Source: Amphirosellinia nigrospora (Eukaryota; Ascomycota; Sordariomycetes; Xylariales; Xylariaceae). Taken from it: DNA of 64,000 nucleotides. Made by a program: the position numbers and the translations under genes. Below the pieces are notes generated by a model. It made no database searches and was not told where the DNA came from. It was given only the letters and a program-made list of their open reading frames with translations. Position 1 is the stretch's first letter. Each line of letters begins with the position of its first letter. This document shows positions 1,168-58,456 of the stretch, piece after piece. Location: positions 5,057,569-5,121,568 of the forward strand of contig SCHM01000002.1 in assembly GCA_004123355.1 (NCBI GenBank). The letters are read 5' to 3'.

Positions 1168-2338
1168 TTACGCGTTCGTCCTTTTGTTGTGGTACTTCTC
1201 CACCAATCGCTTCATCTCCTCAACTGCTCTTTAATACAAGTTAGCTCATGTGCTATTTGTTGACCTTCGAGACATACAGTTGTCTTGTTTGCCTATTATT
1301 AGACCACGTAATCGAGACCATTGGGTCGTTTCGCCCATGGCCATTTAGTATCATGCATATAATTTCCCTGGGGGAGCGTCTTCAAACCTACGATGCATAC
1401 AATGCATGACGATCATCTTCATCCCCGATGGCTCTGTCACATCTACTATCTTGTAGTATGCTTGCACATGTTCACGGCTTGTGCGGTATCGAGCAGCTCT
1501 CCAAGGCGCGAACTCATCTACTGCCGTCAGGGGATGAGCTTTCATGACCCACATACGCTCACATTCTCTATGACCATAAAATGCGCAAGGGTGATACAAG
1601 ACGGGCTCACCCGTCTTATTATCAACGGCCACATTCCCATGCCATAGGTCGCCATGAATTAGAACGGGCTCCAACTTTCTCCCCTCCGACTCCATTGACC
1701 GTAGTAACCTAGGGATGACATGCTCGAGGATCACAGGACTCAGCTTATCTAATTCTTCGTTCAGAGCATAGATAAGTCTTTCCTTTTCCATCGTATTCTT
1801 CATCAAACGAGTGAAGAACTCCTCCCAAGTGTCACACCAGGACACGTCTACCGGATAATCACCTCCGTATGTGGTAATGTGAAACCCGAATTTACCATTA
1901 GGTGATTGGGTAGTCTGTTGTAACTTGGCAACGACCATTGCGAATTCGCTTGTCCCGGGCATCTCATCAGTCATATCTCGAAACTCGGCCAGATAGAAGT
2001 GTTTCTTGGGATCCTTCTCCAGAAAACCGACTGCTATCGGCCTAGGGATGTTGCTTGGCAATGCCTTATAAAGAGCTTTGCTTCCCTCAAGCTCGCCCAA
2101 GGCCATTTCCTTAGCGCTATCAGCAGTGTATACCTGTTTCACGTCAGGATATAGCCATCGATAGGCTAGAGATACTCGCTTTGAGAAAATAAGACTGATT
2201 AGTTCCATCTGAGAGCTCGGTGTCGATTTTACTGCTTATCGCCCAGCAACTCGCGCCATATGTAGCAACCCATTTTACTGTCGCGCCCTCCGGTAGTACT
2301 GGTAGAATAGTCAACCAGGATGGTCCTCTAAGACCCAA
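1168..2338 (-). CDS. Fructosamine-3-kinase-like protein (APH kinase fold), frame broken near the C-terminus
   Basis: Family role: ATP-dependent phosphorylation of ketosamines on glycated proteins, in the cytosol. Exon 1 (2338-2180) carries LPEGATVKW and TYGAS; it joins the main exon through a 46-nt GC-AG intron (2134-2179), giving an exact SYFLK-VYTADSAKEM junction. The catalytic loop LIHGDLWHGN is present. The following metal-site motif reads LYHPCAFYGH, where family members normally have Asp in place of the His, so activity is doubtful. A 36-nt in-frame intron (1521-1556, GTATGT, CTGAC, CAG) would turn RECE-RMWV into RECELDEFAPWR. At the C-run 1423-1426 one base is missing: the next frame reads GDEDDRHALYAS, as in the family. 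A last exon (1223-1168) reads LEEMKRLVEKYHNKR after a 54-nt intron (1224-1277, GTATGT, CTAAC, CAG). The stretch between about 1390 and 1300 is unresolved. The uninterrupted frame stops earlier, at 1351. Confidence 0.8.
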
Positions 2339-2733
2339 AGTCCCGTAAGTAGAATGAAAGGGGGTGAGAATCGGATAGTTTAATGTTCGATCACCTACTA
2401 GCCTTTACCCCGTCATCTAGTTTCGTGCCCTCGTAAGCCTCATTGTCCGGCACAGCCGGCGCATTGAACCCGGGAGGGATATAGACCATTTCTAGCCTCT
2501 TTTGGAAGAACAGTTGAATTTATTGAAGTCAACGCCTATCGCTTCTATAACCCAACCCCTCTTTGTCTAGATATTGGTAACACGAGTTCTCCCCCGCATA
2601 TGCATGGCCTCTCGGCTTTCATTGTTTGGTTGAACGTTGCCCCCTACACACCAGGTGGTGATTATTTAATATGCTTTCTCTTGACTCTAATTGGATGTAC
2701 CCCTATTTGACTCCCTTAAAGGAGACCTCTCAG
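2339..2733. other. Intergenic between convergently read minus-strand genes
   Basis: Short spacer holding the 3' end of the upstream HET gene and the promoter of the kinase-like gene. I see no coding signal. Confidence 0.5.
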
Positions 2734-5120
2734 CTACTCTAGTATTATCACCTCCCTCGTGGCCTTACTTGTGATATATTTCATCTGCCCTTCCACCACA
2801 GTATCATTAAACACAGCATTCCCTACCCTCTCGTACGTCCCGCCCTCTCGCTGTCGAATGACCAGCAAGCTTAAAGAGTGGTCTTCCGTTTTCCTATCGG
2901 ACGTGAGACCGAGTAACAAAGCTTTCAATTCGCCCGTGGCCAGGCCCCGATCAGGGAAGTCGTACGAAATCCCATCGAAGATTTCGGGCATCATCGCCAT
3001 CGCCCTCTTCCACCAAGGGGAGACGTTCGGACGCTGGCGGATGTGCAGCTCCGACAGGGGTAGCGTGCGCCCTTCCAGGCACAGCACCCCCCTCTTGACC
3101 TTGCCGAACGGCTGGTCCGGGAACTCGAGCTCGATCTCGCACCCCAGGACGTCGACGTCCGTGATGGATATCGGGTTGACGCTGACGGGCGCCGGATGGC
3201 TCAGCCACGACCAGCTCGGTCCCTCGAGTCGTTCCGTCCACGCCCTGCCGCCGAACGTCCCGTTCACGCCCCCCGACCACCCGAGGTGCTCTATCAGGCT
3301 GTTCTTCCAGAATCCGGCGACGTACTCGTCGCTCCAGATCTTTTGCAGATTCTCTGTGATGCCGGCTAACGCGGGGTAGCGATCATCTACGACGGTGATA
3401 TCGCGCCTGCTATACTCGGCCATGCAGCCAGCCCAGGTCAGGGCCTGCGTGTTCAGAAATTCACCAGTATCCAAGTGCCGAAGATCCTGTTCCTTCTGCT
3501 GCTCGCTTTCTAGCGCAGCAAGGTTGAAGCCTTGCATTATTCTATATTTAGGGCCGGTCGCGGCGCCGATCCGCATATTGGAATGAAGATGTGTGTTGGC
3601 GGCCGGCTGGATATTGTCCTGGGCGCACTTGAGCACAACCTGATACGAGTCGAAGATGATGATCCGCTGCGACAGGAGCATTTCTTGCATCGTCCACGCC
3701 CGGTTGAACGCGGGCTCGTCATCCAGGAACGGCAAGTTGTCGGGGCCCCTGACGAATACGGCCCCAAACGAGTTCTCGTCGAGATGCAAGGGAAGCTTCG
3801 CAGCCGGCGCGTCAATCTTCGAGTTACCCAGAAAGCCTTCGTATACGCTGCTGGCGCTCGCTGCCATGACGGTGATCGTCGCGTCCTTGTAGATGTTGCC
3901 CATCTGCGCGATTTCGTGGATTTTATCCTTGGGGTCGTCTTGGATAATACAAAGGGCATCGATCCAAATATATCTCATGCCAATCTCACGACAGACCTCG
4001 AGGGCGTCGGTTATCGTTTTGGGGAAGTCGTCCACCGGGAGCTCTTTGGTATACCTCGCGAGATTTGACACGGTCGTCTTGTAAGGCTGGTCACCACCCC
4101 AACAGTAGCTTAGAGCTACATATTGACATCTAACGTCCTTATCGGGGATGTGTAAGCGGATAGGTGAGTCTTTTCTGTTTCCGATATCGACCAATCTCGT
4201 TGGGAGATTGGGAAAACAACGACGGGGGCAGGACTTGTGTTTGTCCTGGCAGTCGTTCAACCATCGATGCAGTCGTTTCGCAAGGTCCGGAGTGAGTTTC
4301 TTATCAGGTCGTCTGCCCTCAACAACTTTCGAAGCAGGGCTCTCTGTTATTATGTTAGTTTTGAGGTTTATAATAGACTGACGCCGAGGAAAACAATCAA
4401 CTGACCTTGGAAAGCTACTAGCGGTAGATCATGGTGGTGCGGATCTTGGTCCGGACACACCATCGGGTCCATAGGTATTAGCAACCTGAGCGCCTTGAGC
4501 TGTGCGCCCGACTGAAATGGGGATTGATCTGGCGCAATTGATCCTTTCGTGATCGCATGGACTCTAATTGTCCCGTCGCCCAATATGCCGGGCGCTATGC
4601 CCATGAAGTTATCGCCGTTGCAGTTTTGGCACCGGGCCATAGTCTTCGTGATCAAGTCGCAGAAAGCACAACCGCTGATCTCGGATTGTCGCTTAACTCC
4701 GTCGCATGTGTAGTGCTCATAGCCATCGTTGCTCACCAGAGCGCGGAGCCCTTCGATCGTGCCAGTCATCAGCTGGCATCTATCACAACACTCCAACATG
4801 GCCGCGCATTCACCATCAGGACTAAGATCTGATTGAATCTTGTCGCGGGGATCGTCGTAGTAAGAGGTTTTGTGGCGCTTCATAATAATTGGACATATCT
4901 GAGATCTGAAATCTTGAGCGCTTCTGCCGGTGAAAAGCTTCCTTCTCTTCACTCTACTTTCTATCGTCATTTCCGTGGGTATAGTGCGGTTGATTTCATC
5001 ATCATACTCTGATCCTAGGTAGGCTTTCAAACTCCTCTTGACAAGATCAATGCGATCTTTACTAACACCTTGAATTTCTCGCTCAAACCTTTCTTTGAGG
5101 GCTTTCATGTCTATCTCCAT
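2734..5120 (-). CDS. HET-domain (heterokaryon incompatibility) protein
   Basis: Two exons, 5120-4406 and 4343-2734, joined by a 62-nt intron (4344-4405: donor GTCAGT, branch CTAAC, acceptor CAG). They sum to exactly 775 codons (774 aa), with no frame break. The start is the ATG at 5120. The N-terminal third is basic, then has paired-Cys segments such as CDRCQLM and GCAFCDLI, a common prelude in HET proteins. The HET core starts around residue 290: YVALSYCWGG, then PKTITDALEVCREIGMRYIW, then IDALCIIQDD and MGNIYKDATITVMAASA with a GFL ending. RAWTMQEMLLSQRIIIF and WSWLSH follow, both typical. HET proteins act in vegetative incompatibility and programmed cell death after non-self recognition. 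It is the cleanest gene in the left half, which makes the frame breaks in its neighbours stand out. Confidence 0.93.
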
Positions 5121-6321
5121 GTTGGCTGTGGTAAATGAGGTGCTTGGGAAAGTATACCCGATCGGTATGTGGCTGTTGTATATGATGAGTAGGCGCTTAA
5201 AGAGGACAAGATCTTATTCCCAGCGCGACGTTGCAGAATATTTAGCTATATAGAGGCGAAGGCATCCAAGCGGACTGGCTTTGGACTGCGCAGCATGATT
5301 CTCGATCTCCCGTTAGTGGCGCAGCTGACGGTCGCCCTCTCAGAGCAATGCCCCTTGGATTCTACATTCCGAGGCCAGTATCTTTAGGCTGACTTTAGCC
5401 AACTGCGCCTCAAGAAACTCTGATCTTTTAAGAGATCCTAGCGCGATAGTTTGCCATAACTGTTATTATAACTTAATAATTCGTAAATTGAGCACTATAG
5501 TTCTGAATATAAATGTTTCTCCGTAAGATCGGTGAGTGTGGTGGGAGGTAGCCGACGAACAGGGGGTGTTTGATCACCGCACCGTTACGGACTAGATAGA
5601 GGGGATTTATTCTAAATTTAGAACAATAATGGAATGTTAAACTTCCAGGATTGATACGTTTAGATGATTCTGTGGCTAGGACGTTTAAAGGCTGACTGAT
5701 GTCCTAGAAAGCTCTGTTGTCTGCCTCAGAAGCTGCAAGTAGGGTACATGGAGCACATATAGAATGAACTTAAAAAGGGCTTTAGATGATTCTTTGGGCG
5801 ACCTTTAGCCTTTGCTCTACCTCCAATCTAGATTTATTTTAAGACCGGTGTTTCCTTGTCAAGGCTCTAGCTAATGATTCGGGATGACCCATCGTGAGTG
5901 ATCATGATCAGGTTTTGGGATGATAGGTGACTGCTCAGTAAGCATCGCAACATTTAGTGCATATTTATTTTCCAGGTGAAGAAGATGGCTCATATACGCA
6001 TCTCTCGAAGCTATTTCATTAGATACGGGTTGTTGAGCGAAAACATCTTAAACGCCGTCGTGGGTTTGTCTGGCTATATACAGAAACCTCGTCTTTCTAG
6101 TGTGTAATCCCACATGTGTGCTCCGTGTCAAAAGGCAAAAAGAGGCGTAGTTGATAGGTGTCGGTGATATGATGACTGGCCGATATTGTCCTAGTCTTCA
6201 CCTCGTATACCCCATGCAATTATATATATAGAGCGTCTATGTTGGCGAATCTTTCTCTTTATGCCTATATCAAACCCGACTGCCAGCCTGGTGTTCAAGT
6301 AAATCGTATGTGTCGTGGAAT
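5121..6321. other. Intergenic, 1.2 kb
   Basis: Contains the HET gene promoter region and the 3' flank of the desaturase-like gene. No coding signal. A short TATATATA tract lies near 6222. Confidence 0.5.
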
Positions 6322-10542: not shown

Positions 10543-13500
10543 TTACTCCCAATCTCCAAATTCGCCGGCCCCATATGGGTTCCATTCCTGTCCAGGATAC
10601 GAGGTAGCAGTCATCATGGGCATACCATCATCATCGTCGTTGACGGCAGCGAGCTCGACCGGCTGATCGACGAGGATCTTCTCCTCGGGCTCCATATTCA
10701 TAATAGCCGTGGCGGGCTGCTGCTGTGGGGAAGAGACAGACGCCGAATCCTTCTCCTCCCCGGTTGTGGCCGTGTTAGTAGTAACGGTGGTAGCCTCATC
10801 AGGTTCCGAGTCAGGTCCCTCGAGGAAACTCGTATTATCTTCCTCAATGACGGCTGCACTGACACCAGCACCAGCACCCGCCGCAACACCAAGCCCAACT
10901 GCGACGGGGCTCGTGAGCCCACGTCCCTTCTCCGAGCCTGCGTATTTCGTATTCCCGGACTCCTGCGCCGCCGTCGTAGTAGCATCGGGGGTAGAGTTGA
11001 GCCGCGGTGTGGCGTCGTAAATATCCTCGCTCGCGTGTCGGACGTGGCTATTAGCGCGTTCAACATCAACTCCGAGGGTCTGCTCTGAAACCTGGTGAAT
11101 CGGCCCATGATGACGTCCCGGCGGCTCCGGGCTGACGGTTAGCGTGCGATCGGCGGGTTTCTCTGGGCTTCCGAAGGGCGCGTCACGCCCGCTGCTCACA
11201 TGTCTTGACATTCTACTCGTCAGACGCGCGGCGTCCGGGGACCGGAGGAGCCCGCTTGCGGCGGCGGTGGGACTTTGTGTAGATGGTTTGCTAGCTTCCT
11301 GGGATGGAACTTGCGTAGAAGGATCAGGGCCTGGTTTACGGGTGAGGTTTGGTGAGTTGAGTTGGAATGCACCGACTGGGGCGGTTGTGGTTGCAACTGG
11401 GTTATGGGAGGGATATGCAAAGACTGAGTGGACGATGTTCCACTGCTAGCGGCACTGTCAGAGATTGAGACGGCTCGGACGCTCGGTGGCAAAACTGAGT
11501 TTGGCATCGGATTGGGCTGTTGGATAGGCACGGGGTTCTGCCCAGTCTGTGCCGTTCCTGTCCAGCTCATATTAGACTGAGCTTGTGAGCCGGGACTTGG
11601 ATTCTGCTGAAACCGTTCCCCGTGTGCTTGGCTCTGCTGCACCTGTGGGGTCTGAACGAGCTGGGTCGGCATTTGGCTCTGTCCTGGCGGAGACATTTGA
11701 CCGGATGGGTACACGGGCTGTGGTTGCTTAAATTGCTGAGGGAGCTGATTATGGGCCACGTTTGATTGGAATTGTTGAGGGGTGGGAGAAGGGGTTTGGC
11801 TTGGCCCCTGAATTGGAGGCTGTTGAGGCGCACCCTGATATGGGATATTATTAGGTATGCCCTGTGGGAAAATCTGAGGAGCGCCGGGGACTGCTCCGGG
11901 AGGTAAACCCTGTGGCTGAGATTGCATCAAACGTGGATCCCATTGCCGCTGTGGAAACCCTGGCTGCACTCCTTGTGGAAACTGCGCGTATTGAACAGAT
12001 GGATGGGTAGGGCGACCAGCATTATAAGACGAGAAAGCCAGCATGCCACCAGAACCATATCCATGTACAGCTTCGTATCCTCGGGGATAGGCACTTGATC
12101 ATACTGAGGCTCGTTCCCCTGTTTCCCAGCCGCTGCCGGGCGTTGCATATGAGGTGGCACAGACCCGGCTCCTGGGATCATGGCTTGGGGGATTTGGCCA
12201 CGCCCACCTTGCATGATCATGCCCGGCGGTATTTGTCCTCGGCCGGCTTGTGCCTGCACCGCCATCGGCATCCCTTGGGGAGGCATTTGGCCGAGCTGGC
12301 CCCTACCGGCTTGCATTTGCTGGGCAGGTATTTGTGCTGGGATCGAACCTCGACCCCGCCCAGATTGTACTGGAGGTATTCGAACTTGTCCCGGCGGAGT
12401 GCCTGAAGACCCCTGCATGCCACTGGGGCCAGGCACTCCTCCCGGGACTGCTGGGCCGGGCGCACCCGGCCGCATGGCCTGTTGTGCTATCTGCGGGCTT
12501 GTTTGGGGGCGTGGGTGGATGTAGGCGCCTCATTTTGTTTAGAACTTCGCTTGAAGGCGCCGAGAAACTTGGAAGCCGCACTTTTCTCTTTGTTGGGTTG
12601 GGGCTGGGCCGCCGGCTTGCCACCATCATAAGCCCCAAAAAATCTGGATAATTTCCCCTGGTCTACTGAAGGCACCGGACTACTAGGAGCACGAGGCGGC
12701 TGCATACGGGCCGCAGCGGATGGAGACGCCAGAGGAGGAACCGACGGTCGAACGCCGTTTGGACCCCATACTAGACCGTTCGGGGCGCCATTGGGTCCGG
12801 AGGCGTTCATTGGTCCGGTTGGGCTAAGACCATTTGGGAAAACGCCGAGACCTTGGCCGGAGTCTCGCGGAGCAGGAGAATCACGAGCGAACTGATCCCC
12901 TTGCAGCCGAGGAGAAGACGAATGGTTCGACTGTGAAGGTACAGGAGACGGTTCTGGAGAGGGGAGTGATGGTTGACGCGCGTCATTTAAGCCCCCGGAT
13001 GACTCTCTGTGGGTGCTCTGTTGGACATACGACAGTTGACTGGGTGCTCGTTCGCCCGGTCTCGGAGACGGTGATCCTGTGCGTTCTGACCGCATCGCAG
13101 CGGCTGGAACAGCTGGTGTCATGAAATGCCCATCTCTAGAGTTGCCAGACCCAACTGGTTTTCTATTCGGGAGGATCGAGGCACTGCTACCGAGTTTCCT
13201 ATAGCCGGTCTTTCAAGGGCGAATCATCAGAAAGTTGCGGCGAAGTCTGCGATGCAATCATACTAGCGTTCTGCAATTCCATTTGACTTGGCCTATGCCC
13301 TAATGGGCTGGGGCCCGCCTGCTGTTTGAAAGGTCCTTGAGATCCTTGGGGCGACGGCATACCAGGTCGTTGGTTAGGAGATTGTTGACTGCCAGGAATA
13401 CTTTGGCTCGAGGAGACAGTGATTCCAGAAGGCCGGCGGATGGTGATCATTTGTGCCTTTTGAAGGGATGGGATGGGTTGGGCCGGATCCTGGAATAACG

Positions 13501-16229
13501 GCGGTGATGGGGACGGACCCGGGGGGCCACGTTGGGCCTGAGGCTGCCCGGCAAACATTGGGTGGGGGCCCAGTGGTTGCCCAGTTTGCCCAGGGCGGAA
13601 CGAAGCATATGCAGGTTGGTTTGAAGGTTGCGGAGGTCGTTGACCGGGTGGCGGTGTCTGCTGAGGGGTTGCGGTTTAATATCCTTGGTTTTGTTTCCTT
13701 GCTTATGGAACAATCCACCTAAGAACCCGCCAGCAGAGCCCTTCTTCCCACTCTCTTCACTCCTTACCTGTTGAATCTGACCTGGATGGGGCCTGCGGTA
13801 CTGGCTCGTCCGACGCCCATGAAAGGAGGCGGGCTTGTCGCCGTAGGCTGTCCCATCTGCGAAGGATGAGGTTGCACCGAACCTTGGGGCCCAGGCGGAT
13901 ATGCTTGCCATGAGAGAGCCGAATGGTCCTGGTTGGGGTGGGCGGTCCAAAGAATGAGACTGGTGGTCTCTGTTGTCCCCTGCACTCCCGGCGGCGCTAT
14001 GATATTTTGAGGTGGACTTTGCATCGAGTGCCTAGCTTCGTAAATGGGCTCTACCCTCACTGGTTGATCATCCTTCACTCCCTCTTTCGCACCTCCACCC
14101 CCTTAATCATGCCCTTCAGCTCAGATAGTCGCTTCTTAGGCGGCATATTGTCCCTCGAAGTTGGGAGCGACACTTGATCAGAGTCGTCAAAAGTCGGGGG
14201 TCTCGTCACACCTCCAGCCGGTTTGGGTTTAGTTTGAGAATGCGCCATATTTGCCACGGATGCGAAGATATTCATCTTCTTCTCTGGGGCTGCATCAGAA
14301 GAACCCTGTTTGCATTGCAGCTACACTGCTTGAGTTACGCCGATGACCTAAATTAAATAGCGGCCTGAGCCTCGTCTTCCTTTGTCGTTCACGTCCTCAC
14401 TCGGAACGCTTGAAACTGAGACTTGGTCAACACGTACTAAAACATAAGGTCAGCCATCCAACACAAAAAGGAGAGAGGAACACTGTGATTGAGGAAAGAA
14501 GTACACACCGCTCATAGTTTCCTTAGACAACGACGCATCATCAAAGCTGGCCCTGGGTCTGGCACCACCATTCGAACCACGTAGGAGGGGATGTTGCCGG
14601 AGTGGCACCTGAGCTTGCCCTTGTTGAAACGCCTGTTGCTGCGCAGGATTAGGAAAAAGTGCAGGGTAGCGCATTGCTGCCGTTGGCGGCACAGGGTTAC
14701 TTGCGTTCCGCGGACGTGTCTGAACCGGCGGTGAGAGAGCACCGCCGGGATTCGACGGCGGCAGGCCTTCCTCGGTCTCCTTATCATACGCCGAGTAGGT
14801 CTGTGGGCCGTTGGCTGAACGGTTCCGGTTGGAAGGGTTCAGGGGCGAGATAAGATGCGACTCTTGCGCGGTCCACTGACGGCCGCCAGGCAGTGAGATG
14901 ACGGTTTGACCACGGCCGTTGACGGTCATGTGGCCGGGTGCACCCTGTTGACCGGTCGGACTACCTCGGCCCATCATCATCTGCTGTGTCTGCATCTGGC
15001 CGATCGGGGCTTGAGGCATGCCGGGTTCGCCGGGCGATCCGACGGCAGGCCCGGGTCCGTTAGGCTGCTGTGACATGGCTGGCTGGTTCAGACCATGAGG
15101 ATTTGGGTTTAGATTCATATTTGGCGGCACAGAGTTGTGCGGGGGAGGGTGAAATGATGCGCCCTGGGCCGCAGGTAATTGGCCATGGTTGGTTTGCTGG
15201 GCCGTCTCTGCGGGCCCCGGAGGCATTGGCGGCAGTGGAGGCACTGGCGGGATGTCGTTCTCAATTGGCGACGGCACTGTGTCGCCGTCCTCATCTGCCA
15301 CACCCTTCTTCCGCGTCAGGTCGAACGTCGATGTACGACGAATGGGCGGCAGCGGCGTAAAAGACGATGCTGTGGCATTCATGAGCTCGTCCGTCTGTTG
15401 CGGCTGCTCCGAGCTGCTTGGCTCGTCAGCCGTCATGACGGCCGCCATCATGTGATGCGACTCGGGATGTGAGTTGTTAGTAAACTTGGAGATAGTTGAT
15501 TCCCGTGCTGTAAATCTAAACCAATCGTCGGATCTCTCATCAGTCAGATGCGCCACATCATGAGCAACAGCGCTCGTTACGGCAGCGAAGACAGAGCGCG
15601 AGGGCGAAGTAGCGGCGGGTGTTCAGAGGTGTCAGCCGCACGTAGGCTGACCTCGAAATCCCTATCGTCTAGTACCGAGGCGCCAGCCGATGAGTGCGAG
15701 GTCGGCTGGCGATTTAGAGCAGTCAAACGAGTCAGTGGCTGAGTAATAGCAGGCAATCGAGCTGTGGCTTCGTCGCCGCGCTCCAAACTACGAAAATTAG
15801 GCGTCGAGGAGCGTGTCTCGGAAATAGGAGAGACTATGTCGTCCGTTTGGACAGGTAAACGAGGGATTGACAGCACAGCATCAGATGTGGCCGGGGTGGG
15901 AGAGGCTGCGGCGGAGAGGGAGTAATTATCCCCGTCGCGCGTAATGAACGAATCGAAGGGCGAGAGAGAGATGGATGAGAGTGACACGGCTAATGGTGGC
16001 AAGCGAGGGGGCTGAGACGGAGATGGGTTACGATAGGGTTGATGGGTTTGGGCTAAGCGAATTTGTGCATATGGATCTGAATACGCATGAGAATGAGGAT
16101 GAGTGTGAGGGTGAGGATGAGCTGGTGATGACACAGCAGCAGCTGGATCTAGATCTGGATTCACGTGTTTTTGGAGAGGCGACGGCGGCGATGGGGCACG
16201 AGCTGCTGGCCCTGATTGTTACTAGTATG

Positions 16230-16266
<37 letters not shown>

Positions 16267-16807
16267 TTGGTGTGGTACTGGCTCTGGCTCTCCTGGTGCT
16301 GCTGCTGCTGAAGGTGATGAGCATGCTGCCTGTGAGATTGGGATGGATCAAGCTGGCGCTGTTGGTGTGCCCCGCTAGATCGGATTGGGCATGGACAGGG
16401 ACCTGGGCCGGGGTCTGGGGCGCCGGCTGGCCTGTAGAAGCCGTAGGGCCTGAGTAGCGCTGCTGGCGTCCCCAGTTTTTATTGCTATATTTGTGCCCAT
16501 GAGAATGAGAATGGGGGTCTTCGTCGTTAGTCCCTGTCCCGGCTGTCCTTTTTCGTTTTTGTAGTTCTACTGGCGTTGCTGCTGGAATGGGATCCCCTAT
16601 GTTGGCGTACCCGGATCCACGAGAAACTAAGCCAAGAGTGTGTTTATTATCCATGGGTTTGGATATTATTTTGTAGTAGCTCCCGCTATCGTGAGCCCGG
16701 CTTCTGCTACTGGACCCCGTTTTGCCGTCTCTTCCTTCGTTCGTGTCGCGCACGGGTCCCGACAGCCTGGCCGCCGCTGTTAATACCCTCGATGCTGAAA
16801 AGTGCAC
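10543..16807 (-). CDS. Very large disordered Pro/Gln-rich protein (about 2,000 aa), many frame breaks
   Basis: One long minus-strand gene assembled from consecutive frames of matching composition. Two introns are visible: 15516-15580 (65 nt; GTAACG, CTGAC, TTTAG) joining ALSSLP to FTAREST, and 14348-14508 (161 nt) joining KETMSG to HRRNSSSVAA. Ten single-base losses, mostly in G/C runs, separate the frames: 16370-16373, 16193-16196, 14080-14082, 13816-13818, 13665-13668, near 13198-13206, 12505-12509, near 12060, 11378-11381 and 11237-11240. One opposite shift lies near 14300. With these, coding length is a whole number of codons. Composition is Pro, Gln, Ser and Gly, with a (Gln-Ser)n tract at 16229-16266. 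Recurrent short basic/aromatic motifs stand out: LSELKGMIKGV, GGFLGGLFHKQ, LSRFFGAY, KFLGAFKRSS and SPLKDRLYRKLGSSAS. It ends with an acidic stretch and EWNPYGAGEFGDWE. Start unresolved: the frame opens without an ATG near 16807. Function unknown; perhaps a cortex or scaffold protein. Confidence 0.65.
16229..16266. repeat. Hexanucleotide GGCTCT tandem repeat
   Basis: About six copies of GGCTCT. On the minus strand it codes an alternating Gln-Ser tract in the frame judged correct. A shorter partial copy follows at about 16280-16290. Confidence 0.85.
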
Positions 16808-18528
16808 CGATGCAATCCCCCTGTACCTGTATCAATTGATATTTGCTGCTTGAGGCCTGTCTTCACCTCTCGTTTTCATCCGTCCTTGGTGATGCGAATC
16901 TTGGCGTGACACAAGCGACGGTGTACCACGTGAATAGCGGCCGAGACCAAACGACAGTCACCAACAAAAAGCCGCCGAAGACGAGTGTTGGCGAGTTTGG
17001 TCTTAAGTAAGTACCACTACTACCCAGACGAATCGCAGCCGATGCCTGGACAACAGTGTCAAAAAATAAAGCTCGCCGTACAATCCCTGTCGGTCATCTA
17101 CGATGGCGGGGTCAGTCGGTCCTCTGGCTCCTAGATAGCGTAAGGGAAGTCTGAAGATGTCGAAGTGAAGCATATATCCATTTTTGCTTCGAGGAACATT
17201 GGCGATATCCCGGAGAGAGGACCGAGCCGCTATTAATACCTGCGCCTCTCATTCTGCAGGGCCTATCAGTCAGGCGTGCAGCAGAGTCGCAGCGAACCGA
17301 CGCTGCTACCTACCACTTCCAAGGCAGTCCAGTAAGGCAAGACAGGGGGACGAGCGCCAGGAACGGCCATGCTGCACAGCTGGATGGCGGGGTGTTCATC
17401 GGACGAAATACCCAGGTAATGGTGAAAATGATAATAATAATACTACTACTGCATCGTACCGCTAACCATCCATTGAAAATCTACCGTGACACAAAGGATT
17501 GCGGCAAAGCTGGGCTGCTAATACAGTGGTTCGCCTCGTATGTGCTATACATATGCCCTCAGATGCCGTGTAATGTCAGTTATTTCGGGGGGTTCTATTA
17601 GCTTTTCATACTGGAGATGATGAACAGTCAGCGAGCCTTTCCAGTTCCAAGTGAAGCCGAGGCAGCCGTGAAAAGAGCGGTCCATCTACAGGCATGGGTA
17701 GCTAAAGGCGTCTGTCTCTCCAAGGCACAACTTGTTTTATTCGATTTGACCATGAGACAATCCACGAGGTTAGGCGATATGAACCTTGATGAACCTTGGT
17801 CGAAGGTGAGTCGCCCGTTTGAGGCGCTTGGTATCAACACATAACCGTCAGTAGCGAGCTTCTGTTGTGAGACAACTTCGGTATACTGCAGGCGACAGCT
17901 GAGGTGTGGAACAGCGGCAAGATAGTGGCGTGGCACGACTGACGTGCTCCTGAGTGGCTGGAAGTGAAGACTGAACACCGTGTGGGGGTTGAAATCAGGT
18001 ATGGAGATCAAGTATACGCTTGCACAGAATCTAATCCAGGTAGTCCGCCGTTGCCTAACATCAACGCGGGAGTACACAGACTGCAGCTCTGCCGGTTCAG
18101 GATGTCCAGCGGAGGTTAGGTACTAATTCCGCATTCACACCCTTGTCAGCAACAAAGGAACGGGCAATTTCCCTAATGCCCAATAGGAAATCATCATCGC
18201 TATAGCCATACACGCATATTAACACGTCCAGCCCATTTCGTCAGCTCAGCCAAGTAACAGGAGCGGCAAGTTCAACAACCGCCAAATCTCGCAATTTTGG
18301 TGGCTCAATGCGATGCAATGCCATCGCATGTGCAACGCGAAGGTTAAAAATAATAGAAATACTCAAATCCATTCCATTCATTCATGATGCTGTCCGAAAA
18401 AAAAAAACCCGAGTACCATTGCAAACAATGCCACCTCACCGCCACCCCAGATTACATCATTACTAACCTTATCGCCTCAAGTTTGGTTTCATATTGCCAA
18501 GATGATAACTCAGCAACGAAGGTCCAAG
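16808..18528. other. Intergenic, 1.7 kb, between the two large disordered-protein genes
   Basis: Expected to hold the promoter and 5' UTR or first exon of the gene to its left and the 3' UTR of the one to its right. Short open frames on both strands have no recognisable motif. Confidence 0.45.
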
Positions 18529-21500: not shown

Positions 21501-21793
21501 CGAGGGTTGGCGTTGGAGGGAAGAGAGGCTACAGCAGGCTGAGAGAAGGTGCGTGAAGAGGGCAGTTGGTGGCCGGCTGGGCCGAATTGTCGCGGACCAG
21601 TCGGCCGGGCAGCAGGAGGCGGCAGCGGTTCGGGTTCGGCATCGTCGTGGTCATCGCCGTCGTCGTAGTCATCGTAGTCATTCCCCCAGTCATCACCATC
21701 ATAATTCTGGACTTTTGCCTCGACCCATTTCCGCGTCTTCGTCCGGTTGACATTCGCTTTGTAAGAGGCGTTGGTCGCCCTACACGTAATCAT
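18529..21793 (-). CDS. Large disordered Ser/Pro-rich protein (about 1,088 aa), two frame breaks
   Basis: Starts near ATG 21793. The N-terminus has a conserved basic block, SYKANVNRTKTRKWVEAK, followed by YDGDDWG and an Asp-rich patch. Then come long low-complexity regions, with an island at PSEIYKRMGEEKEKERLSME and AERRSEYGMDGFL. The C-terminus is conserved-looking and basic: VAGAFGNKGMKSGMKLFNKG, then KNKLRERAAGDKAFF. Two single-base losses break the frame: the G-run 21460-21464 (C-run in the coding strand) and 20156-20159 (likewise). Restoring one base at each gives exactly 1,089 codons. I recognise the N-terminal block and the KGKNKLR-type tail as a conserved ascomycete protein without assigned function. 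An upstream ATG at 21806 would begin MADRHDY but hits a stop at once, so the first codons are uncertain. Confidence 0.72.
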
Positions 21794-22467
21794 GGCGGTC
21801 AGCCATCACGATACGAAGTTTCGAGCACTCAAGCAGCAGCGCATTCACCGAGGTGGCGGGGGGCTGGTGGCGAATACTAACGCTGAGGCGGGAGGCATTG
21901 CCCCTCTGCGGACATTACTATACGATCCCGAATCCATGGGCGGCTAGCAACAAGCTCATAGCATGTCCTCAAGAAGCCAACCGCTGGTGGTGTTGTGGAC
22001 TCGGACAGGAGGAAATAACTCTTGAAGACGGGATGGCGGCCAACCCCGGGAGATTGAAAAATATACTTAGTCACGAGAAGAGGAACGGGGGGAGGAAGAC
22101 GAGAAACAAGGAACGGCAGTCCGGCGTTTAAGTCGGATGGATATGTGAACATGGGACGAGTACACGGCAGCAAAAAGACCGGCCCGAGACACCAGAGGCC
22201 GAATAAAAAGTACAGAGTACAGACCGAGTATCAGGCTATTATAACGATTAAACTAGGTCAAAGGGCGCAAATACATTGGACCAAATAAACGAAGGCTGGT
22301 CGATAGGGATACATCAATCGACCTCGGCCGAGCAAGAGGAGCAGGATGAGGATGAAGATGAAGGAATAAGATACGTAGCAAGGTACCGACTTGCGTCGAG
22401 TGAACAGATGATGGTGATGAATTAAAAGTGGCCCTCCAGCGGCGTTTCGTTTTGTTTCGTACAATCA

Positions 22468-37838: not shown

Positions 37839-37840
<2 letters not shown>

Positions 37841-37883
<43 letters not shown>

Positions 37884-39991: not shown

Positions 39992-40042
39992 AAAAAATAA
40001 TAAATCGGTTAAATTAACCTAAGCCGATTTTTTATTATTTTT
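39992..40042. repeat. Imperfect inverted repeat
   Basis: Left arm AAAAAATAATAAATCGG and right arm CCGATTTTTTATTATTTTTT could pair with a three-base bulge. The loop contains the palindrome GGTTAAATTAACC. Probably degenerate element sequence. Confidence 0.5.
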
Positions 40043-42741: not shown

Positions 42742-44922
42742 AATGAAAAAATGCCAATGAAAATTTGTACTCGTTGATTTTATGTTAGATACGATAGTCG
42801 TCTAATCTGAAGTTTGTGTCTCGGTAAAGACACCGTTAAAGGAGAAAATATTGTCCTCTCTTAACGCCAAAGCTCGGCTGTGAGGATTGGAAACATTCGA
42901 TTTTCTAAAAAAAAAAGACGACATTAAACCAGACCCGAAATAATTACAACGACACCTTCCCCAAATATTATCTGGATACATGGCAGGCGTAAATAGATTT
43001 CCCTTCGCGATCTTTCGAAAATCTGGGGCAAAATGGTGACAAGACGCTGTGCTGATGCTGATGGTACAGTAGAAAAGAAACCGTTTTTGCGAACCGTATC
43101 CGTCCGCATGAATTCCAACATAAGAGTACTTAGTATCTACCCAATCACCTGTCTGTTGCAGGCGATGCGCCTGAGTAAAGCAGCGCGGGGTACGCTAACC
43201 TAATTCATCGTTCATCAAAGGCAAGAAGTAAAACAGACTCAACCTGCCACCTCATCATCAAACATTCCCGGACATACATATATTACTTACGCGAGCAGCA
43301 TACCACAACAAGTCGGTAACTAGGTAGCTAGCGAATATTTGTTCGGATAATAGTGGCGACGGCTCGGCCCTCAGCCTTCTCATTTACTTGACGTGGCAGT
43401 TCATTAATCAATTTAGTCGCACCATCGCCGAGGCACAACATAGTATAGGCGTAGTCGAAAGGTAGGACGGTACGGTAGATATTGCATAAATGCTTGCCGG
43501 TCTATGTCGCACATAATTTCCCTACCCATGCTTGCGGACATTGCCCAGGTGGTATCCCGGCTGTAGATCTTGCCAACGGACCGAGAGATCGATCGTGCGC
43601 TGTCACTAGATCTCCCAGACTAATAAATCTCAAACATTAAAACTTCAGCCAGGCCTTTTTAATGTGGCTGGTGTGGCTATGTAGCTAGCTATGGCTGTGT
43701 CCCCTAAGATCTTAGCTCCCAATACGTGTACCTTAAGAGTATTAGAGCGTAGACATTTTCCCTTTGAAGAGGTGTCCGTCATCTCACATATTGACCGATT
43801 GCCCCAGCCAGAGACGGCGTAACACGGCGTCCGAATAAATCTCTTTTCTCGCATCGTATAGTCGTATTAACGCTAACACGCCCTCTGTTCCATCGCGCCT
43901 GACCCGGCCGCCGTTCAGATGACTTCTTCCGTCACGGTTATCGGACTAGGAACATATTGCTATGAGATGACGTCACCCTGATGTCGACAAGACGCCATTG
44001 GTCTTCTCGAGCGGACTGCTTATATTGTGGATTATGTTGAAGTTCTCGTTGGTGAGGGTGTCCGTCAGCCCTTATCAAAAATCTCTTCGTATTCCAATTT
44101 GCCACCGCCTGAGCGAAGCGGCACGATGGGTGTAATCCATGTGATGTTCATATGGGAAACGTCAGAGTGACAGCAGGTGCCGAAGCGGTGGCGCCAATCT
44201 CATCATTGATACTGTTGGTGCTATTAATGCCATTGCAGTTTCCTTCTCCCGTGAGAAAGCATATTCCTGATCGATCGTATCATAGGCTGGTATGGTTAAA
44301 CTCGGCGAGATGAAGGAGATAGCCCAGCCGTAACTGGACAAGCGGCCTGCTGTAGACGACGAGTCTTAGAACAGGCGGGAATATCAACGAGCCAGCTGTG
44401 GTACTTCGGGCCAGTGAGGCAGAGTGGTGGAGAGGCGTTAAGAGGTTCAGTCCCAGAGAAGTAAAGGACACGGTGAAGAGGTTGTTGGGCACATCGGGGT
44501 GCGGTTTTTGGTGGAGCGGTTGAGGCTTGGCAAACAGAACAGAAAATGATCGCTTTTACGGATGTCGTCGACACATGATCCTCCAGGTAATGCCACCGCT
44601 CTGTCGCACCGTCGGATGCTGTACTGATCGATACTTTTGCCAACAGCTCCTCTAATTGGAATAAAAGGGATTGGCTCAGCGTTTCCCGCTTCGAATAGTC
44701 GAATGCGACCGTGACGGGTAGAACCAGACCGTTTAGGCAGTTCCATGCTAACACCATCCGGCGATGCAAATCCCAATATCCCGGCCACCGGTTCTCGGAC
44801 CATGTCCTGCACAATCTCGGTGTGCCTCTTCGGAGCGGTATGGATCAACAACACAATGCGCAGGTCCCAGCGTCGGTAGGTTTATTGCGGGTACTGGTCT
44901 GCCGCGAACAGTAGGCACCCGA
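42742..44922. other. Accessory spacer, 2.2 kb
   Basis: No recognisable gene. Overlapping minus-strand open frames at 44280-44854 are longer than chance in normal-GC DNA (up to 172 codons) but their protein means nothing to me; they may be a remnant of coding sequence. Confidence 0.4.
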
Positions 44923-45997: not shown

Positions 45998-47483
45998 ATG
46001 ATGGGTAGTACCGAGTCGGCAACTTTACCTCGGGCATTCACGACGTCTTCAGATTTCGAGGACTCGGAGTGGGGATCAATACAATCCCGGGATGCCGAGT
46101 GCCAGCCAACGGACGAGAGGGGGCTCGAGCAAGGGCTTGCCCCGTAGATGGAGGAGCCGCTGCTTGGAAGTTGCTCTTCGCTGCCTTTGTATTTGAGGCA
46201 TTGCTATGGGGTAAAACACTCCAGTCCACCGCAAGTGCTAAATGAGGCTGATTCATTTCGAATAACCATAGGCTTCCCCTCTCCTTTGGCGTATTTCAAG
46301 TATACTACTCCACAATTCCGGAATTTGCTGGTAGTCGTTATATATCCGTTGTTGGAACTATAGCATCGGGGTTGGGCTATCTTGGAGCACCCATCATCAT
46401 ACCCTTCATCCAGCGGTATCCACAGTGGCAGCGATATATGATTTGTGTCGGCTGTAAGTTTGAGAACTTACTAACATGGCGAGGTATCAAGTACTAATCT
46501 CTGCTTCAGGGTCAATTTGCATTGCTGGACTCATCTTGGGGTCTTTTGCATCCACTTTAGAAACGCTCATCCTTACACAAGGTGTAGCTTATGGTCTTGG
46601 TTTCCTCATATTCTACTACCCTATCCTCGGCATGGTGAATGAATACTGGATCGCTCGCCGCGGTATGGCTTACGGCCTTATGTGTGGTGCCTCCGGGTTT
46701 TCAGGGTCCGTGATACCGTTCGTGTTACAAGCACTTTTGGAGAAGTACGGATACAGAACGACACTTCGTGCCGTGGCCGTCGGCCTCACTTTGCTTACGG
46801 GGCCTTTCATTCCTCTGTTAAAAGGTCGTCTGCCGATCTCGGAGAACAGAAGTGTCTCTAAGATTAACTGGACATTTCTTCGGAATCCTCTTTTCTGGAT
46901 ATATTCGGTTTCCAATGTCCTGCAAGGATTGGGCTATTTTTTCCCTGCTTTGTACTTACCCTCCTATGCATCCTCCCTCAGGCTTGGCGGCAAAAGTGGT
47001 GCCCTTCTCGTGGCGGTGATGAGCGCCAGTCAAGTCGGCGGACAGTTTACGTTTGGCCTGCTATCTGACCGCAAGGTGCCGCTTAGTATATTGGCCTGCC
47101 TATCGACGATAGTCGCGGCCATCACTAGTCTCACTCTGTGGAGACTAGCGGAGTCGCTCCCGGTCTTGATTGTCTTCGCCATCGTATACGGGTTCTTCGC
47201 CGCCGGGTTCACTGCCATCTGGGCTCGGATGAGCATAGCTATAACCGACGATGTCATCTCAGGACCATTTGTCTTCTGCTTGCTTAATTTCGGTAAAGGT
47301 ATCGGAAACGTGCTTGCTGGGCCGATCGGAGGGTCGCTTGTTTCCATCTCCAAGTCGACCGGAACTCCGTCTTCATCATCTTATCAATGGGTTATCCTAT
47401 TCACCGGAGTGTCCATGTTCGCAAGCGCTTTTACGATCTTCTTGCGATACTCGAAGTATCTCAGGATTCTGGTTTGCCGATAA
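45998..47483 (+). CDS. MFS monocarboxylate-type transporter, two frame breaks
   Basis: Plasma-membrane major facilitator of the fungal monocarboxylate transporter (MCT-like) group. Start ATG at 45998 (a second ATG follows directly). A hydrophilic N-terminus leads to VDGGAAAWKLLFAAFVFEAL, then FGVFQVYYSTIPEF, IASGLGYLGAPIIIPF, MVNEYWIARRGMAYGL and about ten further hydrophobic helices, with a long cytosolic loop at KGRLPISENRSVSKINW before the second half. Introns: 46211-46271 and 46454-46509 (GTAAGT, CTAAC, CAG). Single-base losses in C-runs at 46140-46143 (which creates a premature TAG) and 46276-46279; restoring one base at each gives exactly 457 codons. The ATG at 46476 lies inside the second intron and is not a start. 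Substrate cannot be told from sequence. Confidence 0.85.
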
Positions 47484-48598
47484 TAGCGGGGGAGTTGTCC
47501 TAAATAGCGTAGCATACAGCATGTAGCATATGGCATTGGCTAGATGTTTCAGGGCAAGGGATTGCCGGAAAAGTTGTCAGTATCACGGCTCCGTGTTGCC
47601 CCAACTACTTTAGACATCATTGAATCATATTTCATGGTCAGGGGAGATAGGGATGGGCATATAAAAGTGTGCATAAAAGTACTTGGGAGTTCAATTATGA
47701 TTCAAAGGACAGAAAGACTCGTTAGGTCGTAAATTTTTCAAGATGAGGTGTTGCCCCTGTCGAATGCATCAAGAAGCGCTGGTAGGATACCGACCTAGAC
47801 GGACGAAAGGTGTCTAAACTAGTGTCTTTGGGAGATTGATTTTTGGGCTGATATTAGGGTTGAGATATATTTCAATCCTTACAAATTGCCGAATATGAAA
47901 ATTGTAAGAATACGTGAAGTTGATCATCGAAAAAGAAGGATGATAAATGTGGTAACAGATGTTTGGCGGCTGCTTGGCCGGTAAGTCAGCCACAAAGTCA
48001 CATGGGGTTCCCGTTTGGTAGGCGCGGACGGACCTGCAGGGGCCGCAGGAAGGCGGGCGGAAGGCGGAAGGTGGGAACGTCATCAGATGCGAAACTAAAC
48101 AGGCTGGCCTCAGCACTCAGCGCCAGTGTTTAGGTTAGGTACCTCTGTATCCTCTAGGTACCTCTGTATCCTCCACAACCACGACCTTCCTCACTCAAAC
48201 CTTGCAACGTAATATACCGCGCACCTAAACTTTCGAGAAAAAATATAAAGAGACGACAGATCGGGCGACCGAGCCAGACAGCGCACTTCACTCGAGGTAG
48301 TGTACTAGACCCATTCACACGCTAGGGGACCGAGAAGGATCGACGAGTTCCACCAACGCCAATCTCCTGAAATTGCTTGCGCATCCAGTTGTGCGCCATA
48401 GTTCGCCATCGATATCACGTCGTGTCTCAACTATCTCAACCTTCATTTCTCGCATCCGGGCCGATTGCTCATCTCGTTGTCTGCTGCGCTGTTTCCGCCT
48501 GATTCTATACCCACCCATACCACCCGACCCTCGATCACCGGCCGAGACGCCCCTGGAACGCGTCATCAATTGCTGCTATCCGTCCAACGTGGCCCGCG
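47484..48598. other. Intergenic and promoter/5' UTR of SED5
   Basis: No gene seen. Contains a direct repeat GGTACCTCTGTATCCTC at about 48138-48171 and a pyrimidine-rich stretch before the SED5 start. Confidence 0.5.
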
Positions 48599-49632
48599 AT
48601 GGCCGTCGCATCGATACAAGACCGGACCGCCGAGTTCAAGTCCGTTCTCACCCAAGTCCAGAAGAGGCAGGCACAGTCCAAGGTTGGCGCACAGAGACGC
48701 TCACTTCTTACCGATGCCGAAAAGACGGCTGCCAATGGCGATACCCGGCCCCGCAGATCAGAGTTCGCGAGACGGGCCGCAGAGATCGGTAGAGGCATCG
48801 GCGCTACCATGGGCAAGCTGGAGAAGCTCGCCCAGCTGGCGAAACGCAAGACCCTCTTCGACGACCGGCCCATCGAGATCAACGAGCTCACCTTCATCAT
48901 CAAACAAGATCTATCGTCGCTCAACCAACAGATCTCCTCCCTCCAAACCCTCACCCGCCAACAACATCCAAAGCCGACCAGGAAGGCGAACACAATAAGA
49001 ATGTGGTGCTCATGCTACAAGGGAAGCTCAGCGATGTTGGCGCCAACTTCAAGGATGTGCTGGAGGTGAGGACGAAGAACATCCAGGCATCACGGTCACG
49101 AACCGAAAACTTCATCTCCTCCGTCTCACAACACGCCCAGCCATCACTCCAACAGTCCGCTTCTCCCCTATACGGGACGCCGGCCCGCGGAACACCGTCA
49201 CCAAGCGCCGATCTCCTATCTCTCAATCCCATCGGCGACCAACAAGTCCTGATGATGGAGGAGGCACAACCGCAAAACACATATATACAACAGCGAGGGG
49301 AGGCCATCGAGGCCATCGAGAAGACCATCAGCGAACTCGGCTCGATATTCGGCCAACTGGCGCAGATGGTGTCGGAGCAGAGCGAAATGATCGAGCGGAT
49401 AGACGCCAACACCGAGGATGTCGTCGACAACGTGCAAGGGGCCCAACGAGAATTGTTAAAATATTGGTCTAGAGTATCTAGCAATCGATGGCTCATCGCC
49501 AAGATGTTTGGTGTACTCATGATATTTTTCCTGTAAGTTTCACGCGCTCCTTTTTTCCGATGCTACGCACTTCACCCCGTCTCGGTCTTGCTAATCACTC
49601 CCGGTAGTCTTTGGGTCCTCATCGCCGGTTAG
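48599..49632 (+). CDS. SED5: Syntaxin 5 / Sed5, Golgi Qa-SNARE, one frame break
   Basis: Mediates ER-to-Golgi and intra-Golgi fusion as the Qa-SNARE. The N-terminus MAVASIQDRTAEF is the Sly1-binding N-peptide of this family. An Habc-type helical region follows (KLEKLAQLAKRKTLFDDRPI, IKQDLSSLNQQISSLQ, then HNKNVVLMLQGKLSDVGANF). The SNARE helix is at about 49290-49450 (EAIEKTISELGSIFGQLAQM, with the Qa-typical EQSEMIERID and VVDNVQGAQRELLKYW). A C-terminal membrane anchor is split by a 75-nt intron (49533-49607; GTAAGT, CTAAT, TAG), giving MIFFL-LWVLIAG. One base is missing near 48960-48985 (TRQQH to SKADQEGEH); restoring it makes exactly 320 codons. SED5 is essential in yeast, so this break is unlikely to be real. 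Confidence 0.93.
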
Positions 49633-50852: not shown

Positions 50853-52121
50853 ATGGCGCCTTCGACTTTCAAGCTGAACACGGGTCAGGACATGCCGGCC
50901 CTTGGCTTCGGTAGGTATCCCATTTTTTCGTTTTTATCTAGTAACTTTGAATGACTTTGAGTGCTCTCTATCGTGGGTTAAATCATTCGCCCTTCTTGAT
51001 CTGACGAGGAGGACCCTGCGGGCATACCCCCTCCTTATCACGAGGCTCCAATGCGATCCGGCCAACTCGCCCTGGCCCCCGCATACGCCTCGCCTCAACC
51101 CTGCACGCCTCCCTAGACGCTAAAGCTGACGACATCCAGGCACATGGCAATCGGCGCCCGGCGAGGTCGCCGCCGCAGTAACCTACGCCCTGAAGGTGGG
51201 CTACAAACTCATCGACGCTGCCTACTGCTACGGGAATGAGGACGAGGTAGGGCAGGGAATAGCGGCCGCGATAAGCGCGGGCTACGTGACGCGGTCCGAG
51301 ATCTTCGTCGTGACGAAGCTGTGGAACACCTACGCGACGCGGGCCGAGGTGGGGCTGGACAAATCCCTGAAGGCGCTGGGGCTGGACTACGTCGACCAGT
51401 TCCTCGTGCACTGGGCCGTGGGGATGAACCCCGGGGCAACGACGACCGCTTCCCCAAGCTCCCCGACGGCTCGAGGGATATGACCTGGGACCACGATCAC
51501 ACGGCCACCTGGAAGCAGATGGAGGCGCTCCTGGATACCGGCAAGACGAGGAGCATTGGTGTCTGTAATTACTCGGTCCCGTATCTAGAGCAGTTGCTGC
51601 AGAAGGCTGCCGTCGTCCCCGCTGTGAATCAGATCGAGAATCACCCCTCGCTTCCCCAGCAGGAGGTCGTGGATTTTTGTAAGACGAAGGGCATTCACGT
51701 CGTTGCGTACTCGCCGCTTGGAAGTACGGGGGGTCCGCTTATGAAGAGTGAGCCTGTGGTTAAGGTCGCGGAGAGGAAAGGGGTTAGTGCTGGTACGGTG
51801 TTGTTGAGTTATCACGGTACGTTCATCTCCCAGTCTTCCTACCTGCAACTCTTCTCCTGTGAGTAACGCTGATGTTGATTCGGTGTCAGTTGCCCGCGGC
51901 GCCACGGTCCTCGCCAAGTCCGTCACCGAGTCGCGCATCAAGGCGAACCTCGAGATCGTCGACCTCGACGCGGAGGATATGAAGATCCTGAACGATTACT
52001 CTGACGCACTTACCGCAACGGCAAGCTTGAGCGATATGTCTACCCACCCTTTGGGATTAACTTTGGGTTCCCTGATAAGAAGGCGGGCAGGAGTATGCCG
52101 AATGGGTTTTCAGAGGCGTGA
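50853..52121 (+). CDS. Aldo-keto reductase (AKR superfamily), two frame breaks
   Basis: NAD(P)H-dependent reductase of carbonyl substrates, probably cytosolic. Exons 50853-50910, 51140-51816 and 51890-52121; introns of 229 nt (donor GTAGGT, CAG end) and 73 nt (GTACGT, CAG end). Start MAPSTFKLNTGQDMPALGFG is typical. The catalytic tetrad is visible: Asp and Tyr in LIDAAYCYGNE, Lys in VVTKLWN, His in QFLVHWA. Also SIGVCNYSV and VPAVNQIENHPSLPQ (substrate and Asn/Gln motifs) and GATVLAKSVTESRIKANLEI (cofactor phosphate site). Single-base losses at 51433-51436 (MNPG to GNDDRFPKL) and at 52013-52014 (DALT to RNGKLERYVYPPFG). Restoring one base each yields exactly 323 codons, the normal AKR length. 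The true C-terminus is MPNGFSEA at a TGA ending 52121. Confidence 0.92.
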
Positions 52122-55855: not shown

Positions 55856-56698
55856 CTGTCACGCCAAACGGCGAGAGTCATGGGAGAGAGTTTCGTGAGT
55901 AATAATGGATTAGGGGAACAGAAATAACAATCTACGAACTGGCCATCCGATTATGTTTTTGTCTTTAAGGGACGAACTTTTCATTAACAAGAAAACCTTC
56001 ATTTTGTTTAGTCGCAAACTCTTTCTCTATAAACGGAAGCATTCGTGGCTTAGTTCCCCAGCTCGTATGTAGGACTTGGAGCTTGAAGGTCGCTAAGCAG
56101 ATGATTGGCTAGCAAAAGCAAAGCGGTGCCGTCGCCCTATATGATTGCCTCTATATACTGCCCATTGATTTGCCTGTTTATGCCACCCAATTCATGGTCG
56201 AAGAAGGCTATAGTAGAGGTTGGACCTTTTACCCAAACCCCATTAACTTAGAACCCATGGAAACCTATGTGGGTATAGTAGGGTTTTTATACCTATACTA
56301 CCTATATAGGTTTTTTTCAACTTATGATACGCGAATAGGGGTTAAGGAGACATGCGTGATGCAAGCGTTAAAAACACCACATCTGGTTATACACCTTCTC
56401 TTTCAACGTCTAGTCGCATACATAACTACGAGGCCTAAATCTTTGCTAATAGATATTGTTAAGTCTCGATCATATTCCCTATATCTTTTATATGAACAAA
56501 TTTAGCTTAGATATAAGCAGTGGCTAGACTACTACTTAGTCTGGAAACCCTGAGCATGCGGGCTAATTCAATTTTTGAGGCCTCCATCTAGTTAACATTT
56601 TAGTTACAAGAGACAGCAATGGAGAGTGATATGATAACACCATGAGATATCCAGCGTAAAAACAACTTACCACCCCCTTTGTCTCGATCCGTATATGA
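55856..56698. other. Intergenic between convergent genes
   Basis: AT-richer. The plus frame at 56170-56505 is a low-quality open frame over a TATAGTAGGG/CTATATAGG-type repeat-like stretch; not supported as a gene. Confidence 0.45.
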
Positions 56699-58456
56699 TC
56701 ATCTGCGGTCGAGGATTGTAATTTTTATATTACCGTCAGGGAGCGAAGAAATAATGGCTCGCTGCGTCGGGGCAAAATCACAACTCATGCCCCAATTCAA
56801 GGTTTTCAGTAGTGGCTGGATTCTAAATTCATTATAGTTTGGCTCCAGTAAGGTTGTCCAGATACACCAATCGCGCTGAATCGCCATGGCCATTGTAGCG
56901 TACCTCGTTCTCGTATTTTTCAAAGGCCTTTTGGTTAACTCCAAAGCTGGCACTGCGTCCGGTGGTTTGTTGTTAGTGAGGAGTAGCAGAAGAAACAATG
57001 ATCGCAGTGATAGTAACGGATGAGAATCTGTCCGCCATAATCGTGTGAAGTCATGATTGTCTGGTTCCAATCCCCTCCAGGCTCTACACGTATTGTAGGT
57101 GGGAAATAGTCCGAAACCCGCCAGCCTTCACTTGGGTCTAACTTTATCGTGGTGACTTCAATGGCGAGAATTTCTGTCGAAGGAGCTTCTTCTGAAAGAT
57201 ACATTGGATATCTTTGAGCGTTACTCGAAATCGCAGCCGGGATCATGAAAGGCGCACTACCACGGCACCTTGCCACCCTGAAATGATGTCCGCTCTTAGG
57301 CAGTATAACTAGAGGGATAGCTATGCGTCCCTCTGTTGTTTTATCTTCTGTAGTCGCATCCAAGAGCCCAAGAGCAAGGGTCATATGATTGCATGGTGAT
57401 GAAGAATCTTTCTGGACCGCTTCCTGTGCTTTCCCAAGGAAAATCACCAGTAATTCCATATATAGCCCTAAGTTGTCATATAATAATGCGAGCCACCAAG
57501 TATGGTCTTCAGGGATGTGGCGAAGCGACCAAAGGGTTTGAAATCATCTGGATGCCTAGCAAACAGGCGCCAGTCAGCGTCAAAGCAACAGCGATAGCTG
57601 CCTCCAAGGCCCCACGAGAATATTGAATGATCATATGTAGCTCGGATAATTTCCTCTTGGAATCTTATAAATGCACGATGCCCTTCGCCGTAAAGCAGGG
57701 GCATGTTTACTCCAAAAATACCGAGCAAACTGTAGGCTATGTCTTCTATGCGAGACGTTTCACGCCCAGAAGCCCAAGCCATCTTCTTGGCAGCAATTAC
57801 TGCAGTGGGGTCTCTCTGGTGTCTGATAACTTCGAGTTCAATACCCGTAATATCACAAACCACAGCACCGAGGTCGAGCATTTTCGCAGGTCCTCCTCCG
57901 CGTAGCCCATATTCAGGATGATGACCGTGCGAGTGACAGTCATTTTGAACCGACTTACGAAAGCTTTTCCGCTCCAATTGCATATGCATGGGGTATTATG
58001 AATGGACCTATGACGACCAAGTGCTATCATAGAATACCCTATACTCAGGGCCAAGAGCTCCTGTAATGTCCAACCACGAGTGAACCATCGGCTCTTCCGG
58101 AATGCTAAACTAGGGCGCGAAGAGCGTTTCTTGGATGAGAAATCGGAGAGGTAAATGTAGCATATGTCTGCGTTCTTGACCAGCGGAACATGGAATTGAT
58201 CGCCTCAGAAAGCTCGCAGAGCTGTCCTTGTTTATGCAACACGTGTCAATCCACACCCATTCCAAACCATCTTCCTCGGCCTGTTTGCAACAGTGGTCAA
58301 TCTTGCGTAGCTGATCTTTTGTTGATGGTCAGATCTCTCAAGCTCCTGAAATGTTACTTCCTGTTCTTCCCATGTGTGAGAAAGTATGGCATATGCTGGA
58401 ATATAGGAGTCTAAAAATTCGTAAAGCCTTCTTGACTTGACGTTAAGAAGACGCAT
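56699..58456 (-). CDS. HET-domain protein of the HET-E/NWD-associated type, many frame breaks
   Basis: Start ATG 58456: MRLLNVKSRRLYEFLDSYIP then YAILSHTWEEQEVTFQEL, the classic N-terminus of this HET subfamily. Across successive frames the protein continues IDHCCKQAEEDGLEWVWIDT-CCINKDSSAELSEAIN, RKSRWFTRGWTLQELLAP, YRVFYDSTWSS, then DITGIELEVIRHQRD, KKMAWASGRETSRIEDIAYS, LLGIFGVNMPLLYGEGHRAF and IIRATYDHSIFSWGL. The C-terminal extension carries RIAIPLVILPKSGHHFRVAR and RYATMAMAIQRDWCIWTTL. Base losses are visible near 58303-58308, 58211-58220, 58176-58183, 58046-58053 and 58012-58020, several outside homopolymers. An intron starting GTAAGT near 57960 is possible. Family role: self/non-self recognition and cell death. 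I see no NACHT domain attached. Confidence 0.85.

Follow-up and report, generated by a model that had tools for sequence, protein, structure and literature searches.

Frame-broken genes across a fungal genome assembly are best explained by residual consensus errors

The errors of long-read sequencing are described, in the part of a previous study available to us, as chiefly short insertions and deletions tied to homopolymers (PMC12007338). In one MinION assembly treated in that part, the majority of the indels were false deletions, which were commonest after runs of four to five bases. We analyzed a 64-kb stretch of DNA, hereafter the window, which spans positions 5,057,569 to 5,121,568 of contig C4 in an assembly of 48.1 Mb and 11 contigs. 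The largest contigs measure 13.8, 11.8, 8.4, and 8.2 Mb, and the assembly into 11 contigs of chromosome size suggests that long reads were used. The content of the window, with a HET domain, syntaxin 5, short introns, and RIP-like repeats, points to a fungus. Several genes of the window change reading frame along their length (Table 1). These frame breaks are almost certainly residual consensus errors of the assembly and not biology.

Table 1. Coding features of the window, with positions counted from its first base
Feature	Position	Strand	Basis
Fructosamine-kinase-like gene	1354..2235	-	Pfam PF03881, E 4.6e-25
HET-domain gene, unbroken	2737..5213	-	Pfam PF06985; predicted intron 4344-4405
Long low-complexity coding stretch	10546..16831	-	Successive overlapping open frames (three-frame translation)
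Second long low-complexity gene	18532..21805	-	Frames 20139-21473 and 18532-20187 differ and overlap
Weakly subtilase-like coding stretch, several frames	41433..42801	-	PF00082, E 0.01, under the curated cut-off
MFS transporter gene, several frames	46009..47480	+	PF07690, E 2.8e-14; translations
SED5 / syntaxin-5 gene, two overlapping frames	48503..49533	+	PF11416, PF05739
Aldo-keto reductase (AKR) gene, split near the 51433-51436 run	51003..52038	+	PF00248, PDB alignments, codon score

Frame switches in two genes of the window were secured by homology. In the AKR gene, the piece at 51130-51480 aligned with residues 19 to 120 of the aldose-reductase chain in the PDB, and this alignment stopped at about 51438. 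The same family resumed in another frame, in the piece at 51240-51863, at chain residue 118 to 120, which corresponds to about 51435-51441. Since the two pieces overlap and continue the same family at the run starting at 51433, an intron cannot fit between them. In SED5, the frame spanning 48503-49066 carried the Syntaxin-5_N domain, and a different, overlapping frame at 48793-49533 carried the SNARE domain, confirming that this gene is affected, as had been noted in the first-pass annotation of the window. The SNARE region matched PDB entries, and the N-terminal syntaxin piece gave no PDB match at an E value of 0.001. A genome search with the C-terminal piece found no second close match, the other matches being just 30 to 34% identical.

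The first-pass annotation had also named ten short G or C runs as sites of base loss. A codon-score test with 120-base flanks, in which stops were penalised, found a loss-type switch at seven of them. These lay at 11237 (with a margin of just 0.8 on one side) and 16193 in the long low-complexity stretch, at 20156 and 21460 in the second low-complexity gene, at 42037 in the subtilase-like stretch, at 46276 in the MFS gene, and at 51433 in the AKR gene. The test detected no switch at the other three, namely 13665 in the long low-complexity stretch, 46140 in the MFS gene, and 1423. Codon score decided the calls at 51433, 42037, and 21460, whereas those at 16193, 20156, and 46276 went to the open frame because stops in another frame outweighed its better score. 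The PF03881 match in the fructosamine-kinase-like gene lay in a single frame and covered positions 51 to 223 of the 288-position profile, and the PF07690 match in the MFS frame 46464-47480 started at profile position 64. Nine pieces of the long low-complexity stretch gave no Pfam match at an E value of 0.001.

The coding segments were further scanned with a codon-usage Viterbi model, the signal of which was weak (mean of 0.11 log units per codon). The initial penalties returned zero frame changes, since ending a gene and restarting it cost less; the penalties were reset, and the absolute counts hinge on those chosen. With this conservative scan, 12 changes (9 loss-type and 3 gain-type) were called in the retained segments of the window, or 0.82 per kb in 14,650 bases. 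The frame switches inside conserved genes are thus real, whereas the count of about 25 sites given earlier for the window was not reproduced. This total is nonetheless plausible, as the scan is insensitive and its 12 calls do not disprove it, and introns may account for some of the sites that had been counted without being listed. The accompanying argument that one added base per site gives whole codon counts is circular, because one base counted per frame change necessarily restores the frame. The HET-domain gene had been described as clean, and the scan agreed, with one 62-base intron and zero frame changes. At 0.44 to 0.82 breaks per kb, a 2.4-kb gene would escape with a chance of about 0.35 to 0.14 if the events are independent, so the intact state of this gene requires no special cause.

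The same scan was applied to 15 loci sampled outside the window, 11 of which had coding segments, and 10 of these 11 were affected. The rate was again 0.82 per kb (36 changes in 44,076 bases). Simulated unbroken genes gave 0.03 changes per kb (5 in 163,738 bases), a false-call rate gauged solely on genes drawn from the scan's own codon table. The share of gain-type changes was 14 of 48 in the codon scan, compared with 2 of 20 net +1 breaks by the strict homology described below; the larger share counts against the reading as consensus error. Gain-type changes made up three of the four called in one coding segment (755-4979, minus strand, of L014, C9:1000001-1010000), unlike at most sampled loci; this segment may be a transposon.

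We searched the whole assembly for conserved protein families and scored every candidate for five of them (HSP70, Cpn60_TCP1, Actin, Proteasome, and RNA_pol_Rpb2_6), with matches within 800 bases grouped into one locus. A break was called strict when the net offset was -2 to +2 and the two pieces abutted or overlapped in both genome and profile, so that an intron cannot fit. Matches to the five families totalled 43,196 bases at 48 loci and contained 19 strict breaks; these fell in 15 of the loci, and the remaining 33 had none. The net offset was -1 in 16 of these breaks, -2 in 2, and +1 in 1. The candidates of Aldedh, Sugar_tr, and DEAD were scored in part, and these families were excluded from the rate; with their pairs added, there were 20 strict breaks (16 net -1, 2 net -2, and 2 net +1). 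The list of pairs drew on 12 of the 40 DEAD rows, those in pairs, and on the complete set of rows for each of the seven further families. By frame alone, it held 33 abutting pairs, 26 loss-type and 7 gain-type, 13 of which are omitted from the strict count on account of larger net offsets. The 15 broken loci of the five fully scored families were located on contigs C1, C4, C5, C6, C7, and C8. Frame breaks therefore extend beyond the window and are assembly-wide.

Among the Rpb2-type loci, one was in six pieces, one was in three, and the third was a single match containing one TAG. The Rpb2 search returned a single unbroken match in each of nine bacterial genomes (9/9), indicating that the search method itself does not split genes, although a polished fungal genome would be a better control than this bacterial set. 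Introns misread as frame changes would be another source of apparent breaks, and several pairs of pieces were indeed separated by intron-sized gaps of about 50 to 75 bases. For the 20 strict breaks and the AKR gene, however, this reading is ruled out by the abutting or overlapping pieces, and as an account of the breaks in general we regard it as highly improbable.

RNA polymerase, CCT, SED5, and the other fully scored families are essential. The essential genes across the assembly share the bias toward loss, and the break rate in the loci sampled outside the window equals that within it, indicating that the bases are missing from the consensus sequence and were not lost by the organism itself. 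Breaks of this kind would hardly be compatible with life in a haploid fungus, and the molecules that were sequenced presumably lacked these losses. These observations, together with the bias toward G/C runs shown below, support the proposal of the first-pass annotation that uncorrected long-read or homopolymer error is responsible.

Real gene decay would be an alternative if the window, lying beside AT-rich blocks that resemble the products of RIP, were a pseudogene zone. A block of 5 to 15% GC does lie at about 24 to 40 kb of the window, and most of the differences between the repeats at its two ends are transitions. However, the sampled loci outside the window had an equal break rate, conserved genes on other contigs were broken too, and the broken pieces retained strong protein similarity (for example, an HSP70 piece with an E value of 4.9e-138). 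Furthermore, RIP introduces C-to-T transitions, according to the part of PMC7882544 available to us, and not one-base losses. Decay of the genes is thus very unlikely, and consensus error remains the preferred explanation.

The AT-rich block itself, at 23824-41362, spans 17 kb, mainly of 5 to 15% GC, and is flanked by same-strand repeats of about 300 bases at 23824-24125 and 41063-41362. In the aligned core of the pair, 42 of 64 differences were G-to-A or C-to-T from the first copy to the second, and 15 were the reverse. The repeat had 42 matches in the genome, including several same-strand pairs about 8 kb or 15 to 17 kb apart. Judged by sequence, these repeats are as would be expected of retroelement long terminal repeats degraded by RIP. 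Two of the sampled 10-kb stretches were also very poor in GC, namely L006 (C4:5030001-5040000, 12% GC) and L009 (C5:2500001-2510000, 8% GC), and may be centromere or degraded repeats. About 17.5 kb separates the former from the left end of the window; very AT-rich DNA thus lies on either side of the gene island at 1 to 22 kb, at that distance on the left.

The bases around the 20 strict breaks were compared with a matched control of 14,766 bases in 16 single-frame conserved-domain matches, two of which contain one stop each. Within 4 bases, a G/C run of at least 3 occurred at 10 breaks (5.8 expected; reached in 3.4% of 2000 resamplings), one of at least 4 at 6 breaks (1.1 expected; 0.05% of resamplings), and one of at least 5 at 3 breaks (0.1 expected). 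With an 8-base margin, the corresponding numbers were 12 (7.7 expected), 7 (1.6 expected), and 3 (0.2 expected). A/T runs were not enriched at the strict breaks, those of at least 3 being found at 3 of 20 with 5.2 expected. This test supersedes one in which 20 breaks (18 strict and 2 not) were set against random GC-normal windows and in which a G/C run of at least 4 occurred at 6 of 20, with 13% expected; the matched control is the better one. The bias toward G/C runs claimed for the window was therefore reproduced in independent genes, but the other 10 strict breaks had no G/C run of at least 3 within 4 bases. This speaks against homopolymer error as a full account, as the runs cannot explain every break.

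Run lengths were also tallied in GC-normal sequence. G/C runs of 7 to 15 bases were seen four times, in addition to one of 27, whereas Markov models predicted 9 to 10 runs of at least 7; A/T runs of at least 7 were seen 21 times, with 21 expected. The histograms thus indicate at most a mild scarcity of G/C runs of at least 7. Homopolymers of 23 A, 27 T, and 27 C remain in the sequence, which counts against an error that collapsed every such run. The 27-C run, at 52793-52819, is followed by TTCCCC and was the sole G/C run of at least 12 in the set of loci examined with it; it is odd in an assembly whose breaks concentrate at G/C runs of 4 to 6.

Two biological explanations would predict part of this pattern. 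If the strain were a mutator prone to slippage at G/C runs, its breaks would show the observed bias toward such runs. However, the losses in RNA polymerase, CCT, and SED5, given the essential roles of these genes, would be inviable in a haploid, and we consider a mutator extremely improbable. Under pervasive programmed -1 ribosomal frameshifting, the sequence as printed would be correct and ribosomes would slip back one base, and the predominance of one-base losses has the sign that such slipping would offset. The classic slippery heptamer for -1 frameshifting is X XXY YYZ, and an in-frame copy near the overlap was found at just 1 of 22 breaks. As many as five frame changes occurred within one Rpb2-type domain, and loci of the same family differed, some being broken and some not. 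It is scarcely conceivable that such frameshifting is pervasive here, and next to no credence can be given to a fungus that translates much of its genome, including RNA polymerase subunits and chaperonins, through frequent -1 slipping in the absence of the classic heptamer.

In the explanation by consensus error, a long-read assembly left unpolished or polished too little would have lost scattered single bases, most easily at repeated G or C. Many genes longer than about 1 to 2 kb would then look broken, while the organism's own genes would be intact. The result is a warning on data quality, since gene models, pseudogene counts, family losses, and claims of inactivation based on this assembly would be wrong for a large proportion of its genes until it is polished.

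Compared with the long-read assemblies in the available part of PMC12007338, the present assembly shares a predominance of one-base losses, their association with runs, their occurrence throughout the assembly, and the fragmentation of conserved genes. It differs from those assemblies, as far as that part describes them, in that G/C runs and not A/T runs are enriched at the breaks, and in that a G/C run of at least 3 accompanies just half of the strict breaks.
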